Source: Desulfobulbus sp.
GTDB taxonomy: Bacteria; Desulfobacterota; Desulfobulbia; Desulfobulbales; Desulfobulbaceae
Direction of reading: 5' to 3'
NCBI GenBank assembly: GCA_028684915.1
Contig: JAQUEZ010000075.1
Location: forward strand, 1 to 27,060
DNA length: 27,060 nucleotides
Of the stretch, positions 1 to 20,959 are shown piece after piece. Position 1 is the stretch's first letter; every line of letters starts with the position of its first letter. The position numbers and the translations under genes were made by a program. The notes beneath the pieces were generated by a model, which was given only the letters and a program-made list of their open reading frames with translations, was not told the DNA's origin and ran no database searches.

Positions 1-617
1 GTGCTGACGGTGACGGTTCCGGCTTGGGCCGTGATCAGCGTGCGTATTTTTTGCCGCCGCCAGCGCTCAAGATGCTCCGGAGCGGGCAGGACGCCCTGTT
101 GGCGCTGACCAGCGGAAACCACAATCAAGGCTGGGTTGACTGCGGCGATGAACGCTTCTCCCGCCGAGGTGCGGCTGCCGTGGTGCGGCGCGAGCAGGAC
201 GTCGGCGCGAAGACGAGCCCCCGTCTGCAGCAGTTGGGCTTCACTTGAAACGCCGACGTCGGCGGGCAACAGCAAACTGCGCGCCCCGTACTGCAGATGC
301 AGCACCAGGCTACGGTCATTGGCGGAGGCTGCGGAGTCTTTGATTAATCCAGGCATTCCCAGGCATTGCAGTCGCAAGTCGCGGCCCTGTTCGAGCAGAT
401 CTCCGACCGAAGCAGTCTGAATCGGAATGCTCGCTTGGCGCACTGCATGAAGCAGTCGCTCGTACCCGGGCTCTTCGCCGACGTCGCCATTGACGATCAG
501 GCGTCGCGGCTGAAAGCGGGCCACGACAAACGACAAGCCGTTGTAATGGTCGCCGTGGGGATGGGTGATGATCAGACCGTCAAGCCGCCAGATGCGTTTT
601 CGCCACAGGAATGGGGC
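1..617 (-). pseudogene. comEC: comEC, 3' part only (metallo-beta-lactamase domain), interrupted
   Basis: This is the C-terminal metallo-beta-lactamase-like domain of the DNA-uptake channel protein ComEC/Rec2, read on the minus strand and running off the left edge. Translation gives APFLWRKRIWRLDGL, then ITHPHGDHYNGL (the HxHxDH metal-binding motif), LLLPADVG and later LLAPHHGSRTS. These are the landmarks of the ComEC nuclease-like domain. There is no start codon and no channel domain. Recognisable homology ends near 615-620; the residues FYFPFR encoded up to about 638 may still be comEC, and an in-frame stop occurs at 645-647. The upstream side is AT-rich DNA unlike the GC-rich comEC part, so the gene appears split by an insertion. 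The missing 5' part may lie beyond the far end of the element. Identity as comEC is well supported; that insertion rather than simple decay caused the break is inference. Confidence 0.85.
535..570 (+). other. protospacer-like site with AAG PAM inside comEC
   Basis: Positions 538-570 match the leader-distal CRISPR spacer (reverse complement of 1541-1573) at 27 of 33 positions. In crRNA orientation the first 11 nt are identical and mismatches fall at spacer positions 12, 15, 16, 21, 30 and 33. Positions 12 and 30 belong to the every-sixth-base set that type I-E crRNAs leave unpaired. The three bases immediately 5' (535-537) are AAG, the canonical type I-E PAM in E. coli. The site encodes the ComEC metal-binding motif; the spacer would encode ITHPHEDHYNG against ITHPHGDHYNG here. 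The match, PAM and orientation are seen directly; that this is the targeting site used for insertion is inference. Confidence 0.8.
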
Positions 618-884
618 CCATCGAAAGGGGAAGTAAAATTGTACTAATTTATATAATTATAAATAAAATCAGTTTGTTGTAGTCGGTAATGTTACTAACC
701 TGCAACTATTTTGTTACCGATTGGTTTCGCAATTTTTCCAAGATCAAGATATGTGGATTTCTTGAAAATTTAATGCAGCAATCTGTTGTTTTTCACATAT
801 CAACCTTCTGGTTTTACGTTAATATATTACACTTCTATCGTTTCGATGAGCCACCCCGCGACCTGATCCCGATGGAGACCAGTC
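618..884. other. comEC/element junction and AT-rich element end
   Basis: This gene-free AT-rich stretch begins where ComEC homology fails. A TGT at 640-642 could be a Tn7-like terminus, but I see no convincing array of repeated transposase-binding sites behind it. An inverted repeat TCGGTAA (683-689) and TTACCGA (714-720) with a 24-nt centre lies 40-100 bp inside the junction and could be a recombinase-type site. The exact end cannot be fixed without the opposite end of the element or an uninterrupted comEC for comparison. Confidence 0.45.
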
Positions 885-1324
885 ATGATCCAGCCCGGCT
901 TTTTTGACCTGCAAGACCGATTGCACAAAATCGACAAGAACGCGGCGACCCGCTTGCCAAGATCAACGAGACGGTCATTTGGGATATGTTTCGTCCAGCG
1001 CTTGAAAAGGCTCGGGACAAAAACCGGCAATCCAATGTTGGTCCGAAGGGGTACGATGTCATCTTGCTGTTTAAGATTTTTATCCTGCAGTCGCTGTACA
1101 ATCTGTCGGATGACGCGACCGAGTTTCAAATTCTCGACCGGCATTCTTTGACCTGGTCCAGGATCCGTTCGCGGATCGAGCACATCTTTGGTGTATAGGC
1201 CCAGAGAGCGTGTACTTTGCTGTTGCGTACGATCGGCATAACCCGAGCCCGAGTAAAAATCGGTTTGCGCAATTTAGCGTACAACATTGACCGGATGGGG
1301 ATGCTTCTGGCGACAAGCAGGTGA
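885..1324 (+). pseudogene. decayed IS5-family transposase (internally deleted)
   Basis: The 5' part reads MIQPGFFDLQDRLHKIDKN, then shifts frame near 943 and continues as WDMFRPALEK, YDVILLFKIFILQSLYNLSDD and EFQILDR. This is the N-terminal region of IS5-family DDE transposases. It is joined directly to the C-terminal signature IRSRIEHIFG, a TAG stop at about 1196-1198, and then TLLLRTIGITRARVKIGLRNLAYN before the final stop at 1322-1324. About 200 residues containing the DDE catalytic core are missing between the two parts. With a frameshift, an internal stop and the deletion it cannot be active. No clear terminal inverted repeats were found, so the insertion boundaries are unknown. It is probably a later insertion into the element end. 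Confidence 0.8.
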
Positions 1325-1480
1325 AGTGCGCCCTGGAAGCGGCAAAATGGCAGAAGAGCGCCATCCAGCGCCTAGTGAGGCGGCAGCAGGGTGCAAAACC
1401 GATCGGATTAAAAGGCAGAAGAGCATGGTCTTTGTGAAAAAAATGCCGGTGAGGGCTGTCGGGGCTTGTTGAGCTAAATT

Positions 1481-1509
1481 TCAAGATTCCCATATAAATA
1501 TAATCTTGA
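1481..1509 (-). terminator. inverted repeat just past the CRISPR array, possible terminator
   Basis: TCAAGATT (1481-1488) and AATCTTGA (1502-1509) form a perfect 8-bp inverted repeat with a 13-nt AT-rich loop. It lies 4 nt beyond the leader-distal repeat, downstream of the array as transcribed on the minus strand. The T-tract after it is short, so it is a weak terminator candidate. It could equally be an end of the neighbouring IS remnant. Confidence 0.35.
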
Positions 1510-1512
1510 TAA

Positions 1513-1662
1513 ATCATATTCCCCGCACACGCGGGGCAACTATTACCCATCCTCACGAGGATCATTACAACGGCGAAACATCCCCGCACACGCGGGGTAA
1601 TTGGCCATACAGACACCAAAACCACGGAAATTTACGAAACATCCCCGCACACGCGGGGTAAT
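1513..1662 (-). CRISPR. type I-E CRISPR array: 3 repeats, 2 spacers; terminal spacer matches comEC
   Basis: The 28-nt repeats occupy 1635-1662, 1574-1601 and 1513-1540, with the palindromic core CCCCGCACACGCGGGG starting at 1643, 1582 and 1521. The period is exactly 61 nt, and both spacers are 33 nt (1602-1634 and 1541-1573), as in type I-E arrays. Read on the minus strand the array follows cas6e, and the repeat ends GGGGATGTTTCG, comparable with the E. coli crRNA handle region. The first two repeats are identical, while the leader-distal one (1513-1540) keeps the core but differs at both flanks. The distal spacer matches the comEC fragment at 538-570. I found no match for the proximal spacer in the window. 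The array is tiny and has no adjacent cas1-cas2, so it probably does not acquire new spacers. Confidence 0.93.
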
Positions 1663-1738: not shown

Positions 1739-2413
1739 TTACTCGAATGAAACAGGGTGAGCTATTGTCATCATTCCAAAGCCAAATATTTTTTGGGGAC
1801 CTATACCCGCAACTAAAGCCTTGCTGAATTCATACGAATCAACTACTTCGAGTAACCCATCGAATTGACATGTCGAAAGGGAGATTTCCTCAGCATTGGC
1901 TTGTTCTTGTTTTCGAACCAATGTTAACTGATTGGAAAATTCATATCGCAATGCCTTAAATCCATGTCCTTCCGATCGCCTAACAAACCAATTTTCAATA
2001 TCATTTCTTTTAAAAATTGGAAATTTCTTCCCGCGACTGTACCCATTAAAATGATTCTTTATTGGGCAGGCAAGTAAACTAAAATAAAATTGATCTCCAT
2101 GTTTGATTAGGAACTGAACAGATTTTACACCCAAGACTTTTTTTAGCTGAATGGATCCTCCCTTATTTCTATGTTCAGCTGATATCCAATCTGGTTCTTC
2201 TTTTGATTGGACGAGACAATAGACTCCACAATTATCCTCCTTACCTGTCAGGTGAAATAGAAACGGTTGATTGCTGCCAGCAGGATTGCATGGATACGCT
2301 AACCATATAAGTTGATGTAATTGATAGCGAAATATTCTTTTTTTTTCAGGGTGACTAACCTGGATTAACGATAGAAAAAAACTGACTTCAGTCGATATGA
2401 AGTGATCACTCAT
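1739..2413 (-). CDS. cas6e: Cas6e (Cse3/CasE) pre-crRNA endoribonuclease
   Basis: The 224-residue product is the normal length for Cas6e, which cuts pre-crRNA 3' of each repeat hairpin and stays bound as the head of Cascade. The N-terminal RYQLHQLIW fits the family position of the catalytic histidine (here about His33). The C-terminal GIGPQKIFGFG is the glycine-rich loop that closes RAMP-fold Cas6 proteins. Its start overlaps the end of cas5e by 8 nt, and its stop lies 76 nt before the first repeat, so it is the last gene of the cas operon. The repeat hairpin (6-bp stem, 4-nt loop) is a suitable substrate. Confidence 0.9.
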   Translation of the reverse strand: MSDHFISTEVSFFLSLIQVSHPEKKRIFRYQLHQLIWLAYPCNPAGSNQPFLFHLTGKEDNCGVYCLVQSKEEPDWISAEHRNKGGSIQLKKVLGVKSVQFLIKHGDQFYFSLLACPIKNHFNGYSRGKKFPIFKRNDIENWFVRRSEGHGFKALRYEFSNQLTLVRKQEQANAEEISLSTCQFDGLLEVVDSYEFSKALVAGIGPQKIFGFGMMTIAHPVSFE

Positions 2414-3164
2414 TTTTGAAATCTCGCCGATATAACCGCACTGTTCTGTTTTTAAAGGTTCTCAAGGAACCTGAACGATGTTCTGCAATCACATCAGTTC
2501 CAGCATCATTCCATTTATTTAATAGAACACTATTCTTGTCGTCGAGCTCTGTCGGTAACCTGAGAAGGCATTTTGTTGGTTTTAGATCTCCCACGGAGAG
2601 TGCGGAAAGACGTGAGAACAATCGTTCGCATAAATCCTCAGTTGAATCAACGTGTAGGACCGTCTCTTCTGGATTTGTTAACGGCGCTGATAATGGATTT
2701 GATCGTCGCCCAAGATATGGCGTGAATTTTGGTTGTTGTAGGGCAAAAACGAGTTGTTCGAGCCAAAGCTCTCCCTCGTTATGTTTTGGAATTAGAGCAG
2801 CAACATCCAACCCGTCTGAAATATACCCTCGATGACTAATTAGAGCATGTTCCCTTGGTTTATCAGCCATAGTCAGGCTATTGCTGGTCGTATGATAATC
2901 TGAAAAAAGTACAGGCCGATGAGTTGATGTTATGCCAAGGAGTTGGGATTTCTCGTAGGAGACAGCACTTAAGGTGCAAACTAAAAATCCACTGTACCAC
3001 GCCTTAACTTGGATTGGCGAATGATGGTCGACTCCCATGCAAGCGCCAACCAGCCCAAGGATAGCACTTGCTGTTGGCCATTGCTGTGTCCAACGATCAT
3101 CTCCGACTGATGTTGCTCCCCAGGATCGTATAGATCCTCGCAAGCTTAGAAGAAGACAGTTCAT
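2406..3164 (-). CDS. cas5e: Cas5e (CasD) Cascade subunit
   Basis: Cas5e binds the 5' handle of the crRNA at the base of Cascade. The product begins MNCLLLSLRGSIRSWG, the family N-terminus, followed by PTASAILGLVGACMG and, near residue 170, KFTPYLGRRSNPLSAPL, both typical of Cas5e. I chose the start at 3164 because its ATG overlaps the cas7e stop as ATGA; an upstream ATG at 3182 would add only six residues. Length (252 aa) is normal. It is part of the four-gene minus-strand cas operon. Confidence 0.9.
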   Translation of the reverse strand: MNCLLLSLRGSIRSWGATSVGDDRWTQQWPTASAILGLVGACMGVDHHSPIQVKAWYSGFLVCTLSAVSYEKSQLLGITSTHRPVLFSDYHTTSNSLTMADKPREHALISHRGYISDGLDVAALIPKHNEGELWLEQLVFALQQPKFTPYLGRRSNPLSAPLTNPEETVLHVDSTEDLCERLFSRLSALSVGDLKPTKCLLRLPTELDDKNSVLLNKWNDAGTDVIAEHRSGSLRTFKNRTVRLYRRDFKNE

Positions 3165-4366
3165 GTTTCTGGAATGGCGCATCGGATAGCCTCAGTTGCT
3201 TTTTCAATAGTCGATTCCACCAATGTCTTGAGGTCGGTATCTTGCTCATTGATCCCCATGCATTGCTCAAAGCCGCTAAAAATTCCAAATCGTTGATGCC
3301 GGTCATCCAGCCACGCAATAAAACATTGCCTTGCTTCTTCGAGGAAACCGCCATGTTGCGCTTTGGGGACAGGTCGTTCAAAAGCATTCTGCGCACTATA
3401 TGGAAATGCATTTCCATATGTGATATACGCACAACTGGGGAGGTCATGATTAGCATAATTAGATTGATTTCCAACAGGATTTCGACAAAGTGTAGCGAAT
3501 AGAAAAGCTGCAATAAGATCTCTCGTCATGTCGACTAACTGCGATCTATCCAGGTGCGGGAAGGCAGATGTGATATTTTGGCTTAACAGCGACACATCCA
3601 GGCAATAGTAGTGATAGAAAACACCAGATCCAAAAGATCTTGAATTGAGATGCCCACTTTCGTGGATTCCAGAGATTCTGTTTAAATCGTCTACCGCCGA
3701 CCAGTAATCCTGTTCAATATGGGATTCATGTACTGTGAAGCCATGGCTGATTTGTAAAGGGGAATCAATGTCCCTGAAATACGATGAAGCTGTTGTGAAC
3801 CTTCCAAAAAGCTGCAACTCTGGAGAAAGTGGTCCCACAGACGTTCTCTTGTTCTTTAGCTGTTTAATAATTTCTGTAATATCCTTTATAGTTATATCAC
3901 CATGCTCTGTAACTTCAAGCATGGCATTAGCTAAATATTCGATTTCAGATATAGAAAAGGCTACTAGCTGGGTAAGATCCTGTTCGTTGTGATCTTGAGT
4001 TTTGTGTCGGCTAAAAAAAAATGGAAATGAGGTTAGAGCTTGGTCTATTTCATTTTCATATGTTTTGGGATCTTTGTTGAGGTTCTGAATCTTTTTTTCG
4101 AGAGTGATTTTTATAGAATGAGCACCTTTTCTTGTGCGCACCATGCGAGTTGCTCCATATTTTTCATGTGCATAATCAAGAAATTGCTCAAAGATTTCAC
4201 TGTGTCTTATAGAATATTTTTCAGATTGACTCGAGTATCGCAATCTCCGGCATCCGCCCATAATCATTGTCTTGGGGCGACCTGATTCGTCTCGATTGAG
4301 GTTGGAAGCTGCATGCGATTTGAGTAAATGGAGTTCGATTCGACATCCGGGCTTAGGCGTGAACAT
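3161..4366 (-). CDS. cas7e: Cas7e (CasC/Cse4) Cascade backbone subunit
   Basis: Six copies of Cas7e form the crRNA-binding backbone of type I-E Cascade. The N-terminus contains IELHLLKSHAASNLNRDESGRPK and GGCRRLRYSSQSEK in two parts, hallmarks of the family. Later come QISHGFTVH, DDLNRISG, NPVGNQSNYANHD and NAFERPVPK. The start at 4366 (MFTPKPG) has GGAG seven bases upstream and overlaps the cas8e-cas11 fusion gene by 14 nt; upstream ATGs at 4381 and 4396 are less likely. At about 401 residues it is slightly longer than E. coli CasC. It is translationally coupled to cas5e. Confidence 0.9.
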   Translation of the reverse strand: MFTPKPGCRIELHLLKSHAASNLNRDESGRPKTMIMGGCRRLRYSSQSEKYSIRHSEIFEQFLDYAHEKYGATRMVRTRKGAHSIKITLEKKIQNLNKDPKTYENEIDQALTSFPFFFSRHKTQDHNEQDLTQLVAFSISEIEYLANAMLEVTEHGDITIKDITEIIKQLKNKRTSVGPLSPELQLFGRFTTASSYFRDIDSPLQISHGFTVHESHIEQDYWSAVDDLNRISGIHESGHLNSRSFGSGVFYHYYCLDVSLLSQNITSAFPHLDRSQLVDMTRDLIAAFLFATLCRNPVGNQSNYANHDLPSCAYITYGNAFPYSAQNAFERPVPKAQHGGFLEEARQCFIAWLDDRHQRFGIFSGFEQCMGINEQDTDLKTLVESTIEKATEAIRCAIPET

Positions 4367-6509
4367 TATCGGTCTCCGCATGATTTTTTTCCGCAAAATA
4401 GCCAGTCGCCCATCGGCGCATGACCATATTAGGACGGAAATTGAACTCCTCTAAATCAAAGAGCAATAGCCCGAAATCCAAATGTATCAAACTTCTTTTT
4501 TTTGTTCTGATAATACCTAAAATTTGCTGTAAATATTCGATTAGACCATTTTGTTCATATTCATTGAACAGAAATTCAACTCTTTCTATATTTATGCAAC
4601 TGTTATGTTTTGATAATACTGATCCAAAATTTGCATAATCGGTAACTGGAATAATGAATTGTAATAAATGTAATGCATGTTCGTATAGCGGTTGGTATAA
4701 TTTGTGGCACTCTTTCCTTGCCATATTCATGCATAACCAAAAATATCGTGAAGTATAGGGGTTCTTGTTGTTTATCAATTGAGATTTTTCCTGTTCGCCT
4801 AACAAATAATAACATTCAGCAAAGGCTTGTCCTGCCTTCACAGACTGATTTGATGCTAAGAATGGAAGATTTATAGTCATAAAACCGTCTCCTAATAGCT
4901 TGCGAGTGGCCGTAAATTCTTGAAAGCGATCTTGAAATGACAAGGATCCATTATTCCAAACATCTTCTATAAATTGAAACCAGCATGATCTAATTTTTTT
5001 TTCAAATCGATAAATTAAATTATCTTTCCATGATTCAGGCAGATTGTTAATCATTTTGTATTCATGGAAAATAGAATCAGCGGTGTTCCATATATCCTGG
5101 TAGATATTTATGATAGAAGAAGTTTCAAACGCCTTCTGATGTCGTTGAACATTTTTTTTATTTGTATCACCGATCAGTAAATATCTAATTCTATCTCTAA
5201 TATTTTTAATATATTCTTCTGATTTTTCTGCTAAGAATAGTATCAGATCTAACTTGTGCTCGTTAAACAACCCTGTGCTACCACAATGGTACTGAAAAGC
5301 ACCTCTCACATCTTGATTTTTTGCTGCATACTTCAGTGAAAATAAAACCAATTCACTTTGACCTGCACTTTTGTTTAAATCAATTATTAAATTAAGTGAT
5401 TGGATTACGTGTGAGGGGCAACGATGTGCGAGGCTGATGATCGACCAAGAGGGCATTGAAAAACCATGGTATGGCAGGCTGGCGCTGGCCATATTGGAGT
5501 TTTCTTCATCTTCAGATCTTTGGGTTAATACAGATGGATGATCTGTCTTGGTATACATTTTTCCCATTATTCCCGGAACTTGTGCTTTGCAATTTGCAGG
5601 GGCCAGTTCCCTGACCTTTCTGTAGAGGGCTATTTCTGATAAAATTCTAAAAGTCTTAAAAACCAACGTGGTTTCGCCGCTAATCTCGCACTTGTCGAGT
5701 TCCGGTGGATCAAGCACAATCGCGCGACTCTGGAAAAGCCGAATATTTGCAGTTCCAGATATTTTTTTTATACCGCTGAGGTAAGGCCAGAATGGTGGCC
5801 TGTCATCATGCTCTAACCCTCCGTTATTCTGACAGTCAGGAATCCACGGTAATGGTAGTGATGGTTCCCAGTATTGAGAATAACCGGGCAGGACTGCGCT
5901 AAACAATCGTTGTCTCATTGTTTTGCCGTAATGATAATGGGCGAGGGCGCGCCCAGTCAGATTACCAATTGTCCAGTACTGAGTGCCTCCTTTGGACAGG
6001 GTACAGGAAGCAAAAAGAAAGAGAGCCGTTAAGTCGGGTCCAAGTTTCATGGGGATAGGACTCATCCGGCGCAACCCCTTAGCTTCGACACCATGTATAT
6101 TTGGGATGAACGGCCACATAAGTCGCGCTATGTTTTCTTTCCTTTCAAACCTGCCCCAGGCTGATGGTATTTGCAGGAATGCACCATTTCCTACTAGGGC
6201 GAATCCTTTTAATTTCTCCAATACATCACATATTCTTTGGATTAATGTTCCAAGTTCTCCCGATTGCTCGGTACAGATCAATCTTGAATAGTCTTTTTTG
6301 GATATTCCTTTTGACCAGATAGAATCAACAGCTACCTGTAAGATTGAGGCTAACAATTCGTGCTGTATGCTGGATAAAAAACCAAAGCTCGGAACGTGAA
6401 AGAGGGGAGTATCGGAAAGGAGGATATCAGGTAATGATAACCGGATGGTATCACCTGACTCGTTGGCAAGTAGCCAGATCGGATCTAACGACAAATTCAA
6501 ACTTTGCAT
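4353..6509 (-). CDS. Cas8e-Cas11 (Cse1-Cse2) natural fusion
   Basis: The 718-residue protein is too long for Cas8e alone (about 500) and fits Cas8e plus Cas11. Residues 1 to about 540 have a Cas8e layout: N-terminal FLSSIQHELLASILQ, AFLQIPSAWG, IPMKLGPDLTALFLFA, FWPYLSGIKKI, then a helical C-terminal bundle. Residues from about 545 resemble Cse2: a helical region, RYFWLCMNMAR, IERVEFLFNEYEQNGLIEYLQQIL in parts, and the family ending LDFGLLLFDLEEF then MRRWATGYF. No separate cas11 gene lies between it and cas7e. Cas8e reads the PAM and recruits Cas3; Cas11 braces the R-loop. The start has GGAG six bases upstream. No cas3 is present, so the complex probably binds DNA without degrading it. The Cas11 assignment is from motif memory and merits profile confirmation. 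Confidence 0.75.
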   Translation of the reverse strand: MQSLNLSLDPIWLLANESGDTIRLSLPDILLSDTPLFHVPSFGFLSSIQHELLASILQVAVDSIWSKGISKKDYSRLICTEQSGELGTLIQRICDVLEKLKGFALVGNGAFLQIPSAWGRFERKENIARLMWPFIPNIHGVEAKGLRRMSPIPMKLGPDLTALFLFASCTLSKGGTQYWTIGNLTGRALAHYHYGKTMRQRLFSAVLPGYSQYWEPSLPLPWIPDCQNNGGLEHDDRPPFWPYLSGIKKISGTANIRLFQSRAIVLDPPELDKCEISGETTLVFKTFRILSEIALYRKVRELAPANCKAQVPGIMGKMYTKTDHPSVLTQRSEDEENSNMASASLPYHGFSMPSWSIISLAHRCPSHVIQSLNLIIDLNKSAGQSELVLFSLKYAAKNQDVRGAFQYHCGSTGLFNEHKLDLILFLAEKSEEYIKNIRDRIRYLLIGDTNKKNVQRHQKAFETSSIINIYQDIWNTADSIFHEYKMINNLPESWKDNLIYRFEKKIRSCWFQFIEDVWNNGSLSFQDRFQEFTATRKLLGDGFMTINLPFLASNQSVKAGQAFAECYYLLGEQEKSQLINNKNPYTSRYFWLCMNMARKECHKLYQPLYEHALHLLQFIIPVTDYANFGSVLSKHNSCINIERVEFLFNEYEQNGLIEYLQQILGIIRTKKRSLIHLDFGLLLFDLEEFNFRPNMVMRRWATGYFAEKNHAETDNVHA

Positions 6510-7312: not shown

Positions 7313-7840
7313 TCATGCTTCTTTGCCAACCGGAGAACTATTGATCCATTCTTGATCTTCCTTGGTAAGTGTCATTTTTTCTGGCTCGCACTGGCGGAGC
7401 ATGTCTTCAGTGTTGTATTCGAATGTTTTTGTAGGTGTCAAAAGGTCTTCTTCTTTCGTCAGGACTTTCTTAGGTTCACCTTTCATCTGTTGGCTCACTA
7501 TCTTGGGGCCCAATAATCTAGGGCGCTCCGGGTACCATACATCAAATTCAGGCCCAATTCTCCAGCTCTGTACATCTTCGCGTGCATCGAGCCACGCGGT
7601 AATTTTCATCATCTTCCCATCAGTATCATCAGAGCGAGAACCACCAAGCTCAACTACTACGTCCAATATGTTTTCCTTGCCACCACCGCCACAAATAAAT
7701 CCGTTCAATTCCATGGCTTCCTCGACGAAGGCGTGAAAAAAATCATCGAATCCATCTTTTTGGGAGCGTATGACGACGAGTTGAACTCCCCACTGGGCAA
7801 ACTCGCCAATATTTTTTTTCTTACGTAGTCGCTTTTTCAT
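7313..7840 (-). CDS. YggL-like (DUF469) protein with C-terminal extension
   Basis: Residues 1 to about 107 resemble E. coli YggL, a small protein reported to associate with the 50S ribosomal subunit. The shared features are the basic start MKKRLRKKKNIGEFAQWG, a glycine-rich middle (GFICGGGGKENI), and SWRIGPEFDVWY at the end of the domain. E. coli YggL stops at about this point, but here about 65 more residues follow, rich in Lys, Glu and Pro, with no domain I recognise. It stands alone between the XRE gene and the TIR module. Whether it is cargo with a defence role or a passenger housekeeping paralogue is unknown. Confidence 0.7.
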   Translation of the reverse strand: MKKRLRKKKNIGEFAQWGVQLVVIRSQKDGFDDFFHAFVEEAMELNGFICGGGGKENILDVVVELGGSRSDDTDGKMMKITAWLDAREDVQSWRIGPEFDVWYPERPRLLGPKIVSQQMKGEPKKVLTKEEDLLTPTKTFEYNTEDMLRQCEPEKMTLTKEDQEWINSSPVGKEA

Positions 7841-8164
7841 CTTTTAGTGCAGCATTGCAGCATTAAGCTGAAGCCTCGATAGTTTGTTTGATTGACAATA
7901 TTTTCATACGTCCGCTACCTATAGCGGCTCGCATTATTTAACGAGCCATCCCATAATAAAGTCAATTCTCGGTCCATTTTATTCGACTCGTTAAGTACTT
8001 CGGCCGAGTAGAGTCGAAAACTATTGAAATGGTAAAGATAAACAGTAGTAATATTAGGCAGAGGCGATTGCAGAAATATTTTGAGCTTCCATTTGCAAAT
8101 CTCAACTTTACCTAATCAAATAGAAACAGTATTACCATGCTGCCTTTCCCATCTTGTTCATCGG
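7841..8164. other. intergenic region between YggL-like gene and TIR module
   Basis: No gene is evident. A stem CGACTC...GAGTCG lies near 7985-8015 around the palindrome TCGGCCGA, which could end minus-strand transcription from the TIR module. TTTGCAAATCTCA at 8092-8104 recurs at 14476-14488 on the other side of that module (see the repeat entries). Confidence 0.35.
8087..8107 (+). repeat. direct repeat copy 1 flanking the TIR module
   Basis: TTCC plus A plus TTTGCAAATCTCA, then ACT. The 13-nt core is identical to the copy at 14476-14488, in the same orientation. The two copies bracket the TIR/membrane-protein operon and the IS200 remnant. Confidence 0.4.
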
Positions 8165-9331
8165 CTATCCGAGAAATCGGGAGCGAAAGTGCGTGCGGAG
8201 GAACTGGCGCATCTCGCGATAAACGTAAATTTCGAGCTGGCGCAAGGCTGCGATCTTGGCATATAGGTCATCTCCGACGGCGTTGAACTGCTGGCGGATT
8301 AGCTTAACTTGCTCAGCATAGAGCTTGTATCGTTCAGCATCGAGTGAGTAGCCCATTCCCTGATCAACCAACCGAAAATATAGTCCCCAGGCAGCTGCGA
8401 CGCCGCTGAGCGCGATCAAGATGTTCGAAGGGATACTTTCTTGTCCGCTGACGAGTAGAATCCACATCCCGGCTAGAGTTAAAGAGACAATATAGACGAA
8501 TGTGGCGATGTTTCCGCTCATTATAACGCGGCTAGCCATATTACCCTGGCTAGAATTCTCCTCCTTTAGGTTCAACTGGGCATAAATTTCCTGAATTCCA
8601 ATCCTGCTCCGTGACAGGCATTCCAGGAGTTCCCGATGATCGTCGGTCATCGATGTTCCGGGTAAGACACGATTCACCTGCCAGACGCTCTGCCCCCAGG
8701 CGTGTGCATCGTCATGATCGTCGGCAATCCAACGAATTCCTTCCGCAAAGCTCCGCGCCGAAAGGTTTTGGTCAGTATCACTTATGAAGACTCTAAGCGC
8801 TCCGTCGCGTAAGGATCGATACTTTTCGAGCTTTACGTCATTGCCCATCGCGTCAATCGTCGCATCGATTTCATTAACCAAATATTGAAAATAGAACTGC
8901 CGTAGTCGTTCTGTCCACAGACGGTGCGTCAACCACTTGGCTCTTCCGGTATGCCCGAGGAGATGCCAGAGACCCATTAGTCCGCCAACCAAGACGAAAC
9001 CGCAGCCAACTGCGATGACTATGCTCTGAAGAACCTTGGTTGGCAATAATGACCCGAAAGCGAGTAGGGATGCTCCATTTACGCTCAATAACGCCCCCGT
9101 CACGCCATGACGATTAATTCTTTTCTTGGCTAGACTGGCTAAACGATCGTGCCTTTCAAACTCTTCACGGAGTGCTGCCCAATCGAGGACACGAAAAGCT
9201 CGTGGCGAGGCCTCCGCGACTGTTCGTCGCGCTGGCTCCGTCAGCAAAAGGTCGTCATTGCCCCAGCCTGCCAGGGTATTGAAGGATGCCTCATCTGATC
9301 TAATAAACGGCTGGACAGTCACGCCAATCAT
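8165..9331 (-). CDS. four-helix membrane protein, SLATT-like putative effector
   Basis: The 388-residue protein has two hydrophobic hairpins, at about residues 77-95 plus 100-124 and 274-295 plus 302-319. Each hairpin is followed by an amphipathic helical stretch (KWLTHRLWTERLRQFYFQYL; AERYKLYAEQVKLIRQQF). This tandem two-TM-plus-helix plan resembles SLATT/DUF4231-type membrane effectors found with nucleotide- or NTPase-sensing defence proteins, but I cannot assign a family with certainty. The start at 9331 overlaps the stop of the TIR-STAND gene as ATGA, which fixes the reading frame and implies coupled translation. An ATG at 9361 is possible but would overlap more. A role in membrane disruption upon activation of its partner is inference. 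Confidence 0.65.
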   Translation of the reverse strand: MIGVTVQPFIRSDEASFNTLAGWGNDDLLLTEPARRTVAEASPRAFRVLDWAALREEFERHDRLASLAKKRINRHGVTGALLSVNGASLLAFGSLLPTKVLQSIVIAVGCGFVLVGGLMGLWHLLGHTGRAKWLTHRLWTERLRQFYFQYLVNEIDATIDAMGNDVKLEKYRSLRDGALRVFISDTDQNLSARSFAEGIRWIADDHDDAHAWGQSVWQVNRVLPGTSMTDDHRELLECLSRSRIGIQEIYAQLNLKEENSSQGNMASRVIMSGNIATFVYIVSLTLAGMWILLVSGQESIPSNILIALSGVAAAWGLYFRLVDQGMGYSLDAERYKLYAEQVKLIRQQFNAVGDDLYAKIAALRQLEIYVYREMRQFLRTHFRSRFLG

Positions 9332-12300
9332 GGTCGTCTCTTTGAGACGAGCCGCTGGCATCTAAAAAGCAACCTTCCAAAAAGGAGACAAACCGCGGCG
9401 ATGGACAATTTAGAGCGGGCCTGGTTGGGCATAGGCTTATAACACGCAATACTCATCTGATCTATGGGTTTACCATCCTTTAATTTGAGGAACGACGTAT
9501 CGTAGCCTTCCACCGGTTTTTTGTCCTCCATCCTGATAATCAGGATCTTATCAACCCTCATGAGATAGATGTGAAGCTCATCTGTAGCCACCCAATCTAT
9601 AGGATAGGTTTTTCCATTATCGAAACTGATCTCAATCTGCCGGCGATTAAAGTGATAACCTACCCAGAGCGGCGTTGCCCCAAACGGTGCGTCATGCACC
9701 AGACAGAGCTTGCCCTGGGCATTTACCATAAGCCCGATGTTCATCTTGACAGAAGTCAGTCCGACGTCATTCGCGTTCAGTTTGTGCTTTTCAGCAAGTC
9801 GTTTTAATGCTGCGCAAACTTTAGGCTTCAAATCCGGACTATTGATTCGTCGACCAGCTTCGCTGTCCAACCAGGTCAGCGCGAACCGCAACTCCAGATC
9901 GTATCCAGAATGTTCCGCAAATTTGATTGCGGGCAGTAAGTGCCGTTCAAGGTCTATCATCAGATCAAATCGGGCCGCGAGATGAATTAACGACTTGATG
10001 GCACCCGACTTGGCTGCGGCGTCCGCAACAGATTCTAACTCCTTATCGAGCTGATTAGTGCCCGCGTTCATTTCAGCGAACAGATCGATCACCCGTTGCT
10101 GACCATGGACAACTGCCGCCATCAGCGCTGTTTTACCATTGGCCGCGGCGCCTGAAATGGATGTCAGATTGGTAAGCCGATGCAGAATCGCTAAGTTGCC
10201 ACACATAGCTGCTTCCACGATTGGGAGATCCCCTTTCGAGTTGCCAATCGCCGGATCAGCACCATGTTGCAACAGTAGATCGAATAGCCTCTCGTCGCCA
10301 TAGCTAGCGACTTTAACGAGCGCCTCGCTGAGCCATTCTTGTGTCCGATTGCTCGCACCACTCAGGATGAGTTCGGCTATTTCTAAATTGCATTCCTCGA
10401 TCGCGGCAAGGGCGATACGGCCTTGCACAACGTCACTCAAGTCTAGCGCACCGAATTCATCGAGCAGCGCTCGAACGACTTCCACATGCCCATACCTTAC
10501 TGCCAGCATAAGCGGATTGTCATCGAGCGAGCCCTCGGATAGTGGCCTGCCTCCCCTCGCCAATATTGCAGGAACCGCTGCCGAAATGCCCCATTTTGCT
10601 GCAAACTGCAAAGCGAAATCGAACGTATTCTTTTCTTCATGCAATTTTGTAGCAAGACTCTCAAAAAAGGAATGGAAAGCATTTTTCTCTTCTGCCGGAG
10701 CTTCCGACACACATTCGGCCAGCAGCGTGGCTAGGTGGCTGTCCCACCCAATCTCGCCGGGAAGCGGAACGTCCAACTGGAATTCCTTCCCAGAGGGTAA
10801 ATCGTTTTTGCTCGCCTCAAGAAGTTGCCGTGCGAGCGTTTCGCTTGCATTCGGAGTCAGAACGTTCGGAAGCTCTAGTAAGAGGGTCGCAGCTTCACGC
10901 GCCTTTAGCACATGGCGTGATGCCAGCGCTTGCTTGAATGCCCGGCCGGCCAATTCGTACGCCAAATGCAACTGTCCAAGTCCCAGGTAAGCCCGACTAG
11001 CTTCGATGTCCACCCAGGGACGAAGCTGTGAACGATCATGCAATTGCGCCAATATTTCAGGCACAGTGTCTAAGGCGTTTTGATGCTTTTGTAACCCATT
11101 AAGGGATTCGAGAACTACTACCATCCAGCCGCCGTCCGCTTCCTTGTGCGAATTTTGCGCCGCTTTGTCACACATGATTCGGGCAAGTTCAAGCATGCGC
11201 AGCCACTGGTCGGAGGTGCGACGGTCTCGTGGCACGAGGTGCAGCTGTTGCCACTCAAGAAATGCCCTATCCCAATCCAAAATGATTTTGGGCACCCTTG
11301 GATCCGCCTTCGCCTTGTCCATTGCAATGAGAAATCGGCCTGCGATGCTAGCATCCACCTCAGACCACAGCCATGCGGAGTAAAGTGAAACTACCGACCA
11401 ACTTTGGATCCAACTAACAAGCTCATTGAGGCGCTTTGGCCGATACCGAATCCAATCTCGTAACAGCCGCCAGGCCTCCCTTAGCTTACCTTGCCTCCTC
11501 AATACATCGGCTAGTCTAGGTTCAAGCATGAGTTTTTCAAGAAAGCTCGCACCTGCGATCCCGAGTCGCAACAAGCGCTCAGCCTCTGCAAACGATCCGA
11601 TATTTTGTTGGATAGCCGCCTGATGGTAGGCAAGCTGCATAGGCGTAAGGACCTCCGCGCCAAGCACACAAAGCTCCTTGGCGATTTCCCACTCGCTCAA
11701 ATGAATGGAGACGTAACTAGCTAGCGATAGGAATACTTTGAATCGCTCTACGCCAAGCGCCGCCTTGCTTTGCTCGAACCGGTCTGGTTGCACGAACAGC
11801 CATAGTAGGTTGAAGAGAATGCGATACTCACCGAGGTCAGACAACGTGCACCCGTCGCCCAGATTATCGCTCATCACTTTGCCCGCAGCCGCAAAATTGC
11901 CATTCTCGCAGTAGATCTCTACCGCCCGTACAAATGGCATCGCCTGAAGAATAGTTTTTGGGACAAAATAGGAAGGTCGAGCCGAGAGGTGAAGTTGAGC
12001 TGCGGTTTCCACCAACCCAGAGGCGGCAATGCGAAAGCTCTCTCGAATCACCGGATGCGCTGTATACTCCGTCCGGGACAGAGTTGGTACGGCTTGCAGA
12101 ATACCTTCCCGTGCCAACCGATCAAGCCGATCTACCAATTGCGCCACTGTTTCGGTCTGTTTCAACTTTCCTTCCGCTAGTCCTGCGACGAACATGTCCC
12201 GCAACCAATCTACCGGAGCACCGTCCGGAAACACTGCAACCGAAGCGATCAGCTTTTTGTCCGTTTCGTCAATCGCCTTCTGGTAATAAGCGAGCAATTT

Positions 12301-13893
12301 TCTCAACTTGGCGTTGAGGCTTCCCGGCTCCAAAAGTTCGGTTTTGCGCAACACCACCACAGCAGCGTTTGTCTGGACCATTTTCACGCGCTGCACGCTG
12401 TTGGCAAACACCATCAACCCAAGAGGGTGTCCGCTAAGTTCTGCGACAACCCGACGCAAAACCGGTGTCGGTGCCTGCACCCCTTTTCGCTGCAACAAGC
12501 GCACACCATCATCCAACGACAAGCCTGATAGCTCGATGGGAAGATAGTGCCCGCCACGAAATGGTATGAGATCGCACAGATCCAGGCGGCTGGTTACCAG
12601 GGCTGCCGATCGAACACCTTTCTGGTAACACAACCACAGCAACAAGGTGCGCACTCCGCCCTGCTGCAACATACCAACATCAGCGTTCAGGCTCGATGAT
12701 TGAATCACTTCCATGCCGTCCAGCAGCAACAGAATGGCTCGGCGGCGAAGCACTTCCAACATCCAAGCCTCGATCCCCTCCGACGGCCTACATTCATAAA
12801 GCACATCGTTAATGAACATGCCAAGTTCATGCACGAACTCGTCCTGGCTTCGTCCTCCATAGAAGGTGAATTGGAAGACGGCTTCAAAGTGCGACGGTTG
12901 CTGCTTGACGAGTAGGTCCTCAATCGTCTTCAACGCTAGACAAGTCTTCCCCGCGCCCCCGATCTGGCAAAGCGCCACAACACTAACATCGGGTTGAGTT
13001 AGCACCTCGGCAAGAAGTCCCCGCTCAGTAGTGCGGCCCTCGAATCCGTCGATCGGTGGGAAGGCTCCCACAGTTTTCCGCTTTGGTGCCGGGGAATCCT
13101 CAGTTTTGCGGTTGGTGGGCAACTCGCATGCCGGCAGAATTTTCGATTCGGCTACTCGCCTGTGTTGCTCTGCCAAGTTGCTGCGCAAGAGTTCAGAAAA
13201 TGCCACTAAGCGGCGATCCCGATCCGCCGCCTTGCGCAATTCGAAAATGTTGGGTTGACGTACCTTTTTTCGCTCGCGATGATCAAGGCCCGGAAAACTG
13301 TCGTTTGTCTGTTTCTTCAGATCGAAATCTGGCCACCTACCGTTGACTTGCGGCAACGGAATCACTGACGCCGTGGCGGAGACCACACCAACCTGTATCA
13401 CGTATAACGGCATTCCTTGCGCAACATGACGCCAAGCTAAAAAGGGGAGTTCAATCGCAGCACAGATCGGCGAGTTAATGTAATCCTGACTCAAAAGGAC
13501 GACTGCAGTCCTGCATCGCCAAAGCTGAGAAGCCAACTCCACCGTAAACTGCGTGCCAGTCGCAGTGCCCTGTTTGATAGATGCGAAGCTCATTGGGCGG
13601 TATGGCTCCATTGTGATAGGGCAGGAGAGCCGCGCCAACTCTGGGCCAAGGAAGCGTTCAAATTGGAAACGCCAGCGCTCGTCCTTTGTGCAATAAGAGA
13701 TGAAAACCGTCGGGCTACTGCCCTGAACCCAGTCTTGTTCTAGCGCAACGTGCAGCCATTCGGCCGCTCCTACTTCTAGGCCGAGCCTTGCGTATAGAGG
13801 GGGCTCTTGATCGCCAATCCCCGGCATCAATACCCTGTTTTGACAGCCTTGCACTGTCACCGACTCCGGCATTTTATCTGAACTTTTATTCAT
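9328..13893 (-). CDS. TIR-STAND NTPase with TPR-like and ankyrin repeats
   Basis: This 1521-residue protein is a large NLR-like sensor. Numbered from 13893, a TIR domain spans about residues 61-200 (TVFISYCTKDERW; SPICAAIELPFL, which places a glutamate, Glu148, where TIR NADases have theirs). A STAND/NB-ARC NTPase follows, with Walker A GGAGKT at 312-317 and Walker B ILLLLDG near 387-393. Next come a winged-helix and TPR-like helical region to about 1100, ankyrin repeats about 1115-1290 (DNPLMLAVRYGHVEVVRALL), and a beta-rich C-terminal segment. The model is that ligand binding by the repeats oligomerises the NTPase and activates TIR NAD+ cleavage. The start is uncertain: 13893 or 13872 are ATGs without a clear Shine-Dalgarno. 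A GTG at 13998 would reach the edge of the IS200 remnant but would add a hydrophobic segment. Confidence 0.85.
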   Translation of the reverse strand: MNKSSDKMPESVTVQGCQNRVLMPGIGDQEPPLYARLGLEVGAAEWLHVALEQDWVQGSSPTVFISYCTKDERWRFQFERFLGPELARLSCPITMEPYRPMSFASIKQGTATGTQFTVELASQLWRCRTAVVLLSQDYINSPICAAIELPFLAWRHVAQGMPLYVIQVGVVSATASVIPLPQVNGRWPDFDLKKQTNDSFPGLDHRERKKVRQPNIFELRKAADRDRRLVAFSELLRSNLAEQHRRVAESKILPACELPTNRKTEDSPAPKRKTVGAFPPIDGFEGRTTERGLLAEVLTQPDVSVVALCQIGGAGKTCLALKTIEDLLVKQQPSHFEAVFQFTFYGGRSQDEFVHELGMFINDVLYECRPSEGIEAWMLEVLRRRAILLLLDGMEVIQSSSLNADVGMLQQGGVRTLLLWLCYQKGVRSAALVTSRLDLCDLIPFRGGHYLPIELSGLSLDDGVRLLQRKGVQAPTPVLRRVVAELSGHPLGLMVFANSVQRVKMVQTNAAVVVLRKTELLEPGSLNAKLRKLLAYYQKAIDETDKKLIASVAVFPDGAPVDWLRDMFVAGLAEGKLKQTETVAQLVDRLDRLAREGILQAVPTLSRTEYTAHPVIRESFRIAASGLVETAAQLHLSARPSYFVPKTILQAMPFVRAVEIYCENGNFAAAGKVMSDNLGDGCTLSDLGEYRILFNLLWLFVQPDRFEQSKAALGVERFKVFLSLASYVSIHLSEWEIAKELCVLGAEVLTPMQLAYHQAAIQQNIGSFAEAERLLRLGIAGASFLEKLMLEPRLADVLRRQGKLREAWRLLRDWIRYRPKRLNELVSWIQSWSVVSLYSAWLWSEVDASIAGRFLIAMDKAKADPRVPKIILDWDRAFLEWQQLHLVPRDRRTSDQWLRMLELARIMCDKAAQNSHKEADGGWMVVVLESLNGLQKHQNALDTVPEILAQLHDRSQLRPWVDIEASRAYLGLGQLHLAYELAGRAFKQALASRHVLKAREAATLLLELPNVLTPNASETLARQLLEASKNDLPSGKEFQLDVPLPGEIGWDSHLATLLAECVSEAPAEEKNAFHSFFESLATKLHEEKNTFDFALQFAAKWGISAAVPAILARGGRPLSEGSLDDNPLMLAVRYGHVEVVRALLDEFGALDLSDVVQGRIALAAIEECNLEIAELILSGASNRTQEWLSEALVKVASYGDERLFDLLLQHGADPAIGNSKGDLPIVEAAMCGNLAILHRLTNLTSISGAAANGKTALMAAVVHGQQRVIDLFAEMNAGTNQLDKELESVADAAAKSGAIKSLIHLAARFDLMIDLERHLLPAIKFAEHSGYDLELRFALTWLDSEAGRRINSPDLKPKVCAALKRLAEKHKLNANDVGLTSVKMNIGLMVNAQGKLCLVHDAPFGATPLWVGYHFNRRQIEISFDNGKTYPIDWVATDELHIYLMRVDKILIIRMEDKKPVEGYDTSFLKLKDGKPIDQMSIACYKPMPNQARSKLSIAAVCLLFGRLLFRCQRLVSKRRP

Positions 13894-13997
13894 GTCTATA
13901 GCAACCGGAACAATCAAAAAAAATGGTTCAAAAATTAGCAACCAAAGGCTTAACTCTACTCTTCTTGCTCTCTTTGTCGTTCTTCTATTTTTCGACA

Positions 13998-14266
13998 CTA
14001 AACAACCACCGACTTGAAGTCGGTGGGTTTAAAATCGCGGACTGAAAGTCCAGCAATACCGGCAGGCTGCGCAGCCGGATATGGACATGATCCTTACTGA
14101 CCACTCCTCGCAAGATCTGAATCTCGTACCGTTCACATGTTTGGCGAACAAGGTCGCGTACTCGGTTGGCAAGGTCTCCCACCAGCATGGCGTAGCGGTA
14201 CTTGGTGACCCAGACGAAGTGATATTCGATCTTGTATTTTGTATGGCTTCCTTGGCGATATTCCAT
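13998..14266 (-). pseudogene. tnpA: truncated IS200 transposase tnpA
   Basis: The frame starts MEYRQGSHTKYKIEYHFVWV and runs through TKYRYAMLVGD and VRDLVRQTCERYEIQILRG to KDHVHI, which keeps the HUH metal-binding motif of Y1 transposases. After that the homology stops and the frame reads into the element's own end hairpins. The C-terminal half, with the catalytic tyrosine, is missing, so the protein would be inactive on its own. It could be mobilised in trans by a full copy elsewhere. The out-of-family tail continues to a stop at 13985. Confidence 0.8.
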
Positions 14267-14330
14267 GGCTGCCAGTATAAGTCAGCTGCTAGCAGAATGC
14301 TACCCGCCTGAAAGGCGGGGGTTTAAACCT
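14000..14330 (-). mobile_element. IS200/IS605-family remnant with terminal hairpins
   Basis: The stretch has a perfect subterminal hairpin at each side: CCACCGACTT/AAGTCGGTGG (about 14006-14026) and CCCGCCT/AGGCGGG (14303-14319), each followed on the plus strand by GGGTTTAAA. A truncated tnpA lies between them on the minus strand. The length of about 330 bp is well below the roughly 700 bp of an autonomous IS200, so it is a MITE-like derivative. It sits directly upstream of the TIR-STAND gene and may have displaced that gene's original promoter. Confidence 0.75.
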
Positions 14331-14591
14331 TCTTTTTCGGACGAATTAATATCCAGCGACTTCATAACTCATTAGTCACAATCTTCTATCTTAAAGTCAT
14401 CGACACAATTTAGATAAAAGATGAAAAAATTAAAAGTTTTTGGCACATCGAAATCTTTAGTGTAGAAAGATTTCCTTTGCAAATCTCAGCTGTAAAGTGA
14501 ACTCCCTATGTTGGGCTTATTCCTGATTATCCTTGACTCCATCAGGCAACACTTTTCAGAGATAGTGTGCCGCGTGAAGCGGGCCCACCTG
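14331..14591. other. intergenic region between IS200 remnant and Hsp90-like gene
   Basis: No gene is visible. The second copy of the 13-nt direct repeat TTTGCAAATCTCA lies at 14476-14488. A small GC-rich stem (CCGC with GCGG) near 14570-14582 follows the stop of the Hsp90-like gene on the minus strand and might act as a weak transcript end. Confidence 0.3.
14472..14491 (+). repeat. direct repeat copy 2 flanking the TIR module
   Basis: TTCC followed by TTTGCAAATCTCA and GCT. The 13-nt core matches 8092-8104 exactly in the same orientation, 6384 bp away, on the other side of the TIR module. Confidence 0.4.
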
Positions 14592-16937
14592 TCATTCCAT
14601 CTCAGGTGCCGAGGAAGCTACGACAACATCAAATCGGACGTAAAACTCCTTGAAGCCTTCAGCAATCCGAAATTCTGGCACCAGTAGATCGGGAACCGGG
14701 ATAAATATTCTATTCTTTGTGAATAAAGTTGTGGAAGGCATTACCGTTCCTGCTGCATCGGGCGTCTGAAGAGGCGTCTTAAGCTCGATGTCGTAATACA
14801 GAGTCAGCCCGCCAGAAGCATGGTTAAAAATGTAAACAATCCGATGGCCAGCCCAGATCACTTTCGTAGTATGGGGAAAACGAAAGAACTCCCCTTCACG
14901 TTTTAATGCTTTATCCGACAATCCGAGAAACAACTCACAGCCGTTAAGTTGTGGATACTTCTGATTTGCCACTAGAATCTTCGCAGTGCATTCGAGATCG
15001 GGTCTCATCACCGCAGGTGCGGCATCAAAATTGTTAAGATCAGAACTGGACTCTTCATCGGGTGCGGGGGATGAAACCACATCCGGCATATGCTGTTCCA
15101 GCTGCCCAATATCTGTCTTTTGAACCCGAACTGACTGCTGACCACTATGAGTTCGTGCATTTCTTATTACCTCTCCCAGATTTTTGTTACCTGAAAGAAC
15201 ATCGGCCAGCAGAGGTTCTAGTTCTCCCAGTTCGCTCTGCTCATATCGATATAGTTCACGATTTCGTTGCAGTAGCTTAAAAAGAACATCAGCACCTTGT
15301 CTCGTAGATGAAGGAACGAAGTCGGATATCTTCTTGTAGAGTTGCCCGCGCACAAAGTCCTTCACAAAGCCTGAGAAAACCTCCGGTGCAGTCCTGTAGC
15401 AATTGAGAATCGGTTGAATCGCGTTCATTCCCTTTGCGATGGATACATGAACGTTTTCGCCATCACGTTCCACAAGGATATTTACACCGTGCGTGATATC
15501 TGCTAACCGAACTGTCGCATTTGGGAGCAAGTAATCGTCACTCAATACGGTTGATATTCGGACCAGAAATGCTGCCTCTTCAAACGATAGGGATGGACCA
15601 TCATAGATCTTTGTGATAGTTGCCCTGTCAGGCACCTCTGGAAATTTTATGATTTCTCTTAGATATCGAGCGTGAACGCCTTTTCTTGGGTTTGACTGAC
15701 CGACACATAGTAGTGGTGATTCAGGCGAGGCGAATGTGTCGATCATTTGAGGGTCACGTCCCATGTAAAAGTATCCCCTCCCACCAGTCCTGATTAGAAT
15801 GTCTTCCAGTCGGACATTCTCTCCTGCAGGCAGCATCTCAATTGTGACGTTAGACGCCAATTTTAACATATTTTTAGACAGAATATATTGCATGAAGCCA
15901 TTGCTGCGATCTGCAAAGAGCGTTGCCCCAATCTTATCACTGATGGCGAACTCAGCCATCTGAATCACATTATTCAAATGTGCAATGCTGTCCCGGCTCA
16001 GGGCCTCCCGGCCAGCTGTAGGATGAAGAATCGTCAAGTTCGCCACACCGCCAAGGTTGTAGTATCCACTAACAGGTGCAGGAGCTAGGCCAAAAAAGTT
16101 CCGTAGTCCCATCAACTGCCCGGAGTTTTGAAGGAAGACGGCCTCGCCGATCACGGCCTCGCCAGCAAGGCTTAGGTTTGTCACCCTACACGCTGCTACA
16201 GCGTTTGAATCACAAAATGACTCAACTGTGCAATGGTATTCCCCAAGTTTAACATTCATCGTGCCGAGTGATTGAAAATCTCTTGTACGATGAAGATATC
16301 GCTCGTTAAGTGATTGCTGACTAATCAATGTACCGTTGATATAGATGCTGACAGGAACGTAGCGAACATACGGTTCCAAATAAGATCGAGCTTTATCGGC
16401 AGTGATAGTGTTTTGGGGATCAAGTGAAACCATCAAACGAGTTCCCGGCGTTCTTTCATCCTTCTGGCGACTCAATGAGATGCATTCCTTAGCAATGGAC
16501 AGCGCATCACGTTCTGCAGTGCTGATTAATGTTTCATCACTCGCGACAGCCCTTGTTTCGACCTTCAAGGCAGTGCAGACTCCAAAGTTTGCCATCGCAC
16601 CAATACCGAAGGTTCCAATCACTCCGGCACGCCTCGCCAACTCGCCTCGCTTACCGCTTGACCCAGCTTTCCAAAAGTTCTTTCGGAGAACCTCCTCAGG
16701 CATCCCGATGCCATTATCTTCAATTATGACTTGCTGACCAGACAGATCGACTGTGATTCTTCCTTCAGTCAAGGACGTGCCTTCGAGAGAGGCCCTCATT
16801 AGTATCGCATCATAAGCGTTCTGAACATTCTCACGCAGCATAGCCAATGGCGAGTCATATATTTCTTTTGAGAGAATCTCAAGGACTCGACTTGTCTCGA
16901 CTTCAAAGGTAATGCGCTCATCTATTAATGTACTCAT
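14592..16937 (-). CDS. GHKL ATPase, Hsp90/HtpG-like, with C-terminal extension
   Basis: The N-terminal 210 residues of this 781-residue protein form a GHKL (Bergerat) ATPase domain. LRENVQNAYDAI (34-45) carries the N box, DNGIGM (74-79) the G1 box and GTFGIGAM (108-115) the G2 box, arranged as in HtpG. A middle segment similar in size to the Hsp90 middle domain follows. The last 220 residues are beta-rich and unfamiliar (FPHTTKVIWAGHRIVYIFNH). Hsp90-like ATPases recur in anti-phage loci, probably as sensing or remodelling subunits. Here the gene overlaps the metallophosphoesterase stop by 4 nt as ATGA, so the two proteins are made together. The pairing suggests an ATPase controlling a nuclease or phosphodiesterase; the target is unknown. 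Confidence 0.8.
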   Translation of the reverse strand: MSTLIDERITFEVETSRVLEILSKEIYDSPLAMLRENVQNAYDAILMRASLEGTSLTEGRITVDLSGQQVIIEDNGIGMPEEVLRKNFWKAGSSGKRGELARRAGVIGTFGIGAMANFGVCTALKVETRAVASDETLISTAERDALSIAKECISLSRQKDERTPGTRLMVSLDPQNTITADKARSYLEPYVRYVPVSIYINGTLISQQSLNERYLHRTRDFQSLGTMNVKLGEYHCTVESFCDSNAVAACRVTNLSLAGEAVIGEAVFLQNSGQLMGLRNFFGLAPAPVSGYYNLGGVANLTILHPTAGREALSRDSIAHLNNVIQMAEFAISDKIGATLFADRSNGFMQYILSKNMLKLASNVTIEMLPAGENVRLEDILIRTGGRGYFYMGRDPQMIDTFASPESPLLCVGQSNPRKGVHARYLREIIKFPEVPDRATITKIYDGPSLSFEEAAFLVRISTVLSDDYLLPNATVRLADITHGVNILVERDGENVHVSIAKGMNAIQPILNCYRTAPEVFSGFVKDFVRGQLYKKISDFVPSSTRQGADVLFKLLQRNRELYRYEQSELGELEPLLADVLSGNKNLGEVIRNARTHSGQQSVRVQKTDIGQLEQHMPDVVSSPAPDEESSSDLNNFDAAPAVMRPDLECTAKILVANQKYPQLNGCELFLGLSDKALKREGEFFRFPHTTKVIWAGHRIVYIFNHASGGLTLYYDIELKTPLQTPDAAGTVMPSTTLFTKNRIFIPVPDLLVPEFRIAEGFKEFYVRFDVVVASSAPEME

Positions 16938-18379: not shown

Positions 18380-18583
18380 AAAGCTGCCTCTCTCAAAATT
18401 CTATAATAATCGAAAATGCTGAATTTGATATTTTTTATGTCCAGCTGAAAAGTTAACATGTTTCCAATAAGTTGCAACTGACAGGAGATATCTTAACTTT
18501 GAGAATCAGACATTCACAGTGTATATTTTAAGATGAAACGAGATATGTACACGTCAAGGTAACCATTGGCCATTCATTTGACA

Positions 18584-20526: not shown

Positions 20527-20657
20527 TACATCACCTATCAAGTCAGCACAGTTGCGCATTAACTCCAAAAAATAATCTTAAAATGTATCTAGTCTGAATA
20601 TAATCATGTTTTTTGTGCAAAGTCTGCATTTTTTTAAATTAAATTCATTCTCCCGTG

Positions 20658-20686
20658 TTGACTTGGCCGCCTTATGAACTTAATGT
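20658..20686 (+). promoter_or_regulatory. candidate sigma70 promoter for the small ORF and CBASS operon
   Basis: TTGACT (20658-20663) and TAATGT (20681-20686) are separated by 17 bp, close to consensus. The promoter faces the small DUF2188-like ORF and the CBASS operon. Confidence 0.45.
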
Positions 20687-20775
20687 CCTCATTGGATTGC
20701 TGACAGGCTGCCATATGTGCCAATTTTTATTTCTCTTGGTACAAGATATGGTAGTTGAAAAAGCTGGAGATCATA

Positions 20776-20901: not shown

Positions 20902-20940
20902 CACAAAAGGAATCTACTTCCCACACCGGTATTCACTGGG

Positions 20941-20959
20941 TCACAATGTTTCATTGTGA
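20941..20959. promoter_or_regulatory. 8-bp hairpin upstream of Cap5
   Basis: TCACAATG and CATTGTGA are perfect complements around a TTT loop, 50 nt before the Cap5 start. No T-tract follows, so an operator or mRNA stem is more likely than a terminator. Confidence 0.4.

Follow-up and report, generated by a model that had tools for sequence, protein, structure and literature searches.

A Cas3-less type I-E Cascade with a self-matching terminal spacer, and a GMT-like tyrosine-recombinase trio as its likely partner in insertion

Results

Organization of the locus

The window, the whole stretch of Desulfobulbus sp. DNA analysed here, is an entire contig of 27,060 bp and contains most of a mobile element, the CRISPR-side end of which adjoins a host comEC piece (Table 1). 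The full type I-E Cascade subunit set (Cas5e, Cas6e, Cas7e, Cas8e and Cas11) is encoded beside a short CRISPR array, and the far contig end cuts through a recombinase module that we call GMT-like. Between these lies a dense block of mostly defence-like genes: a TIR/NB-ARC-ankyrin protein, an IS200-like fragment, a HATPase and metallophosphatase pair, an AAA_21 and RloB pair, CBASS-like genes (HNH-SAVED, cyclase, E2), an SNase and a NERD protein.

Table 1. Features of the window (27,060 bp).
Feature	Position	Strand	Basis
3′ part of host comEC (C-terminal, metallo-beta-lactamase-like domain)	3..617	-	TIGR00361 ComEC_Rec2 E 6e-20; PF00753; 94% DNA identity to G441
PAM AAG	535..537	+	spacer/protospacer comparison
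Protospacer in comEC, encodes conserved THPHGDH stretch	538..570	+	27/33 match; translation
CRISPR-side element end; motif common to L001 starts at 621 (TCGAAAG)	618..650	.	L001 and G441 comparisons
Two-spacer CRISPR array; of its three repeats the last (1513-1540) is degenerate	1513..1662	-	crRNA sense on minus strand
Terminal spacer, proposed homing guide	1541..1573	-	match to comEC 538-570
Leader-proximal spacer	1602..1634	-	without match in window
cas6 (Cse3/CasE)	1739..2413	-	PF08798 E 2e-35; TIGR01907 above cut-off
cas5 (CasD)	2406..3182	-	TIGR01868 above cut-off; PF09704
cas7 (Cse4/CasC)	3161..4396	-	PF09344 E 2e-65; TIGR01869 172.5 bits, just below cut-off 178
cas8e-cas11 (Cse1-Cse2) fusion, 718 aa	4353..6509	-	Cas8e and Cas11 in single protein
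Interior genes, mostly defence-like	7313..26005	.	dense block
GmtX-like protein, 234 aa	26007..26711	-	NF040692 GmtX weak: 14.1 bits, E 0.026, cut-off 40
GmtZ-like integrase C-terminus, cut by contig end	26708..27058	-	53/99 identical to L009 GmtZ-like protein

With the model of the fusion, Foldseek found nothing at E 0.001 or below; the top entries were Cse1 and CasB. No Cas3 was found among the scanned window ORFs, in agreement with the Cas3-less Cascade described in an earlier note on this DNA, nor in the ORF list, as read, of a second locus (L001, below); in G001, the genome of that locus, a different contig has a cas3_core match that exceeds the cut-off, and Cas3 may act in trans. The fusion, Cas7 and the GmtX-like protein had no relatives in viral contigs, the fusion had none in plasmids, and window positions 1-8000 matched no plasmid. 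A phylum sample yielded the fusion in one of 395, again G001.

The leader-proximal spacer had no match in phages or viral contigs. Against plasmids it returned four Shewanella records (best E 0.02), with a match of 28/33, the first 17 positions identical, flanked by AGA and lying within an integrase gene, as if the non-homing spacers were aimed at plasmids. An ORF at 885-1151 was considered as a transposase remnant, a reading that is dropped because Pfam finds no domain in it.

The terminal spacer matches the interrupted comEC gene

The terminal spacer and comEC are identical at 27 of 33 positions, with AAG 5′ of the protospacer and five of the six mismatches at third codon positions, which confirms the match as it had first been reported. 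No shuffled terminal spacer (0/2000) scored 27 or more in the window, and the leader-proximal spacer reached a best score of 19, a chance value.

The comEC piece was matched in 232 of 257 Desulfobulbales genomes, the closest being that of G441 (93% protein identity). Window positions 1-617 align with G441 without gaps (578/617 identical), and the homology ends at 617. A break about 48-70 bp beyond the PAM-distal end of the protospacer had been claimed; the comparison with this relative, whose comEC is uninterrupted as judged at this junction only (its contig ends ~250 bp past it), sets the break at 617 and thus at 47 bp. The protospacer covers the stretch translated ITHPHGDHYNG. In 13 extracts from 11 relatives the same site matches the spacer at 25-28 of 33 positions with a 5′ flank of AGN throughout, and in G441 the match is 26/33 with a flank of ACA rather than AAG. 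Since the site is conserved in relatives, these sequences fit a reading in which the terminal spacer, as a guide, would target a conserved motif and would not have been copied from this host.

A second locus repeats the layout in a different gene

A profile search of the species-genome collection found a sole fusion locus, L001, in the Desulfobulbaceae MAG SZUA-575. It encodes Cas7, Cas5 and Cas6 besides the fusion, its Cas8e is 42% identical to that of the window, and its array holds two spacers and ends in a degenerate repeat. The terminal spacer matches a truncated sirtuin gene adjoining the array at 27 of 33 positions (read as 33 nt after a one-base boundary shift; as 34 nt, the match is 27/34), with an AAG PAM; the six mismatches all fall at third codon positions. 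A score of 27 or more was reached in 0 of 2000 shuffles. The other, leader-proximal spacer scored 21, a value reached by 193 of 2000 shuffles; its only match was one of 19 nt, and viral contigs gave none. The sirtuin open frame has 79 residues, against 195-302 in 14 relatives (loci fetched), and the family resemblance stops at GLWQK, ~47 bp past the protospacer.

Thus, in a homologous fusion locus, as the earlier note had suggested checking, the terminal spacer again matches the interrupted neighbour gene, and both PAM and distance agree with those of the window. The comparison covers two loci, the window and L001, which hold the sole readable arrays among 16 fusion proteins. That a spacer at 82% identity should resemble a nearby gene by chance might be argued from the imperfect match, and yet we consider it exceedingly improbable: no shuffle reached the score in either locus (0/2000 in each), PAM, orientation and offset agree, and the two non-terminal spacers are without such a match.

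L001 has two further features. Positions 4848-5471, upstream of its fusion gene, encode a separate 207-residue phage-integrase-family protein (PF00589). At 3566-4501, to the element side of the Cas operon, two 41-bp direct repeats that are 80% alike flank a small gene pair, which we take to resemble a toxin-antitoxin pair.

The element end beside the array

When the window and L001 are anchored at the PAM and compared without gaps, 50 bp of unrelated gene sequence are followed by the common TCGAAAGNNNAGTAAAANTNTACTANTT. The end motif TCGAAAG begins exactly 50 bp past the protospacer in both. Between window 571-1512 and L001 12345-11936, ten pairs of 30-mers reach 21/30 identities or more, and every one of them lies on that one diagonal; the best local alignment of the ends is, in a shuffle test by itself, weaker (4/2000). 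As an exact pattern, the end motif had no match over 11 loci, a search in which the pattern differed from the last bases of L001 and so missed L001 too, and none in viral contigs. The trio-side ends of two further genomes, G422 and G451, are similar to one another in the stretch directly before gmtY and show no clear copy of the CRISPR-side motif; terminal inverted repeats are therefore not established. Tn7-like ends start with TG or TGT, within terminal inverted repeats, and the CRISPR-side ends start instead with CCATCGAAAG in the window and ACCTCGAAAG in L001.

An alternative is that the terminal spacer does not serve insertion. It could be a regulatory or self-silencing guide that keeps comEC or the sirtuin repressed, or that prevents a further insertion, in an element that arrived by unguided recombination, given that a Cas3-less Cascade could work by binding alone and that mismatched self-targeting guides are tolerable without Cas3. 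However, the guided gene is the interrupted gene in both loci and the end lies 50 bp from the protospacer, neither of which silencing predicts, while the blocking of a second insertion is compatible with homing. We regard silencing with unguided arrival as very unlikely, and homing by the terminal spacer as the better account.

A tyrosine-recombinase trio accompanies the fusion

The GmtX-like protein of the window is identical at 127 of 238 positions to the third gene product of a complete trio operon in G422 (L009) and 25% identical to that of a Vibrio trio; it has 18 homologous clusters, one of them named Desulfobulbus, and its AF2 model has a pTM of 0.25. In G422, a GmtY-like protein of 514 residues and a GmtZ-like protein of 1195 residues precede the small third protein. 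Their hits to the GmtY and GmtZ models are full-length but score below the NCBIfam cut-offs (163 of 340 bits and 210 of 600, respectively), which is why we name the trio GMT-like, and the G422 homologue of the GmtX-like protein has no GmtX model hit. R246, H444-R447, H470/471 and Y480 of the GmtY-like protein, and R558, H793-R796, H820 and Y829 of the GmtZ-like protein, presumably take the catalytic-type R-HxxR-H-Y roles.

Among the 257 genomes of the order, the fusion occurs in G001 and G422, the GmtX-like protein in G422 and G424, and GmtZ in G422 and G451 (with two weak fragments besides), so that G422 has both the fusion and the complete trio. The protein database adds a fusion protein (P0005) and a GmtY (P0040), both on a contig listed as 119,040 bp, and, in a Desulforhopalus MAG, a fusion protein (P0014, ACI8ZB_003801) and a GmtY (P0050, ACI8ZB_003804) three locus tags apart on 64,343 bp; for both pairs, same-contig status follows from equal lengths and names. 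Equal lengths likewise link GmtX-like to GmtY-like proteins, on contigs of 7,969, 22,810 and 37,497 bp. Five of the 16 fusion proteins lie on contigs longer than 20 kb, and a trio member is found on three of these five; none was found on the 39,196 bp of L001 or the 61,899 bp of P0016. Conversely, the trio was found without a detected fusion in G424, G451 and Vibrio. Given both kinds of case, the trio may be separable from the fusion.

In G424 (L010 24-4437), the GmtX-like gene is nearly the same as in G422; after it come an AAA ATPase gene and a large gene that we presume to be subtilase-like, and the fusion profile found no cas gene in G424. The repeat pattern had no match in G422 or G424, hence there is no readable spacer there. 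In Vibrio vulnificus (L022 9239-15190) the same three-gene recombinase module occurs with no cas gene annotated in that stretch, and this is a possible Cascade-free comparison element.

A gamma-mobile-trio-like tyrosine-recombinase module is thus the likely inserter, and not Tn7 machinery of the I-F3 type. A CAST of the Tn7-like or another DDE kind, with a new I-E Cascade, would also use a homing spacer, with TnsABC/TniQ-type inserters beyond the contig ends and the trio as nested cargo; the distance of 47-50 bp is like that of I-F3 CASTs, as is an element whose array side is turned toward the target, and the left end of the element is off the contig. Against this, Pfam detected no Tn7-type domain in the window ORFs submitted to it (32 of 58). 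TniQ was not found in G001 or G422 either, a search that says little about absence, its control having matched nowhere. The ends lack the TG/TGT start, and at least three contigs carry the fusion together with trio members. We therefore hold such a CAST to be unlikely, if less so than silencing.

Discussion

Proposed mechanism

The evidence at the level of sequence consists of the self-matching spacer, the AAG PAM, the 47-bp break, the L001 layout and end motif, and the company of fusion and trio. The break lies beyond the self-matched site and a relative repeats the layout in a different gene, and for this reason Cascade likely guides the recombinases. The homing interpretation of the earlier note is accordingly supported, by the repeated layout in L001 and by the G441 comparison that places the comEC break at 617. 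We predict, with good confidence, that the Cas3-less type I-E Cascade homes by its terminal spacer and directs the GMT-like recombinases, with insertion ~47-50 bp past the target.

In the sequence of events that we envision, Cas6 would mature the crRNA, and Cascade, with no Cas3 at the locus, would bind the target without cutting. The bound complex would then make the DNA past the PAM-distal end available to GmtY and GmtZ, with the GmtX-like protein or Cas8e-Cas11 perhaps serving as a bridge. The element, predicted to take a circular form, would be linked to the target by these two through tyrosine-recombinase chemistry. It is probable, to a slightly lesser degree than the prediction above, that a crRNA-programmed Cascade steers the tyrosine-recombinase trio and so frees site-specific recombination from a fixed attachment sequence, comEC and the sirtuin gene being the programmed genes. 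If true, guidance of a tyrosine recombinase by crRNA would add a further chemistry of insertion, Cascade could couple to an unrelated integrase, and new tools for kilobase-scale insertion would be suggested. Site choice by some tyrosine-recombinase defence islands becomes testable through the terminal spacers beside trio genes.

Comparison with known systems

CRISPR-guided insertion is described for Tn7-like, Mu-like and telomeric transposons (PMC12669027, PMC10910872), and a 2025 classification lists CASTs of I-F, I-B, I-D, I-C and IV-A, Mu-like I-A and telomeric I-E5 (PMC12669027).

The I-F3 Tn7-type CASTs insert 47-51 bp past the protospacer, and the present locus shares with them a nuclease-less Cascade, a self-matching spacer and an equivalent insertion distance (PMC12452197). 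It differs in its type I-E effector with a Cas8e-Cas11 fusion, in a tyrosine-recombinase trio as the likely inserter in place of TnsABC-TniQ, and in a CRISPR-side end without a TG start. Of the I-F3 analogy drawn in the earlier note, the distance therefore stands, whereas the likely inserter is the trio and not I-F3-type Tn7 machinery. The same note knew of no established type I-E CAST; the transposon-associated I-E5 variant has already been published (PMC12669027). I-E5 CASTs are telomeric transposons with a Cas3 that has an active-looking HD domain and no TniQ-TnsD; they resemble the present element, in which no TniQ-TnsD was seen, in combining a type I-E effector with a mobile element (PMC12669027). 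I-E5 differs, as far as was seen, in its active-HD Cas3, of which neither of our two loci showed a counterpart, and in belonging to telomeric transposons.

In CasMu systems a Mu-like transposon is paired with an effector of type I-A or type V, and in one CasMu-V a cryptic homing spacer lies at a distance of 68 bp from the end (PMC10910872). As is likely here, they join a non-Tn7 transposon to an interference-defective CRISPR, but have a MuA-type transposase and other effectors (PMC10910872). With GMT elements (cited in PMC12715929) our element shares the three-gene module (GmtY-, GmtZ- and weakly GmtX-like) and a defence-rich cargo; it differs in scores below the NCBIfam cut-offs, in its Cascade and self-matching spacer, and in its Desulfobulbales host. 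The Tsy transposon (YRec-HTH-TnsF) is a tyrosine-recombinase element that interrupts the competence-related comM; two recombinase-type proteins and an interrupted competence-related gene are common to both, whereas the Tsy target is picked by the protein TnsF and not by a crRNA, and the gene sets differ (PMC10293859).

The open-licence literature searched, a scope outside which most subscription papers fall, gave no report of a CRISPR-guided tyrosine-recombinase element. The recombinase of IS110 elements is not a tyrosine recombinase. Like the guidance proposed here, an RNA sets the insertion site of that recombinase, in IS110 a bridge RNA acting with the IS110 recombinase and not CRISPR (PMC11208158).
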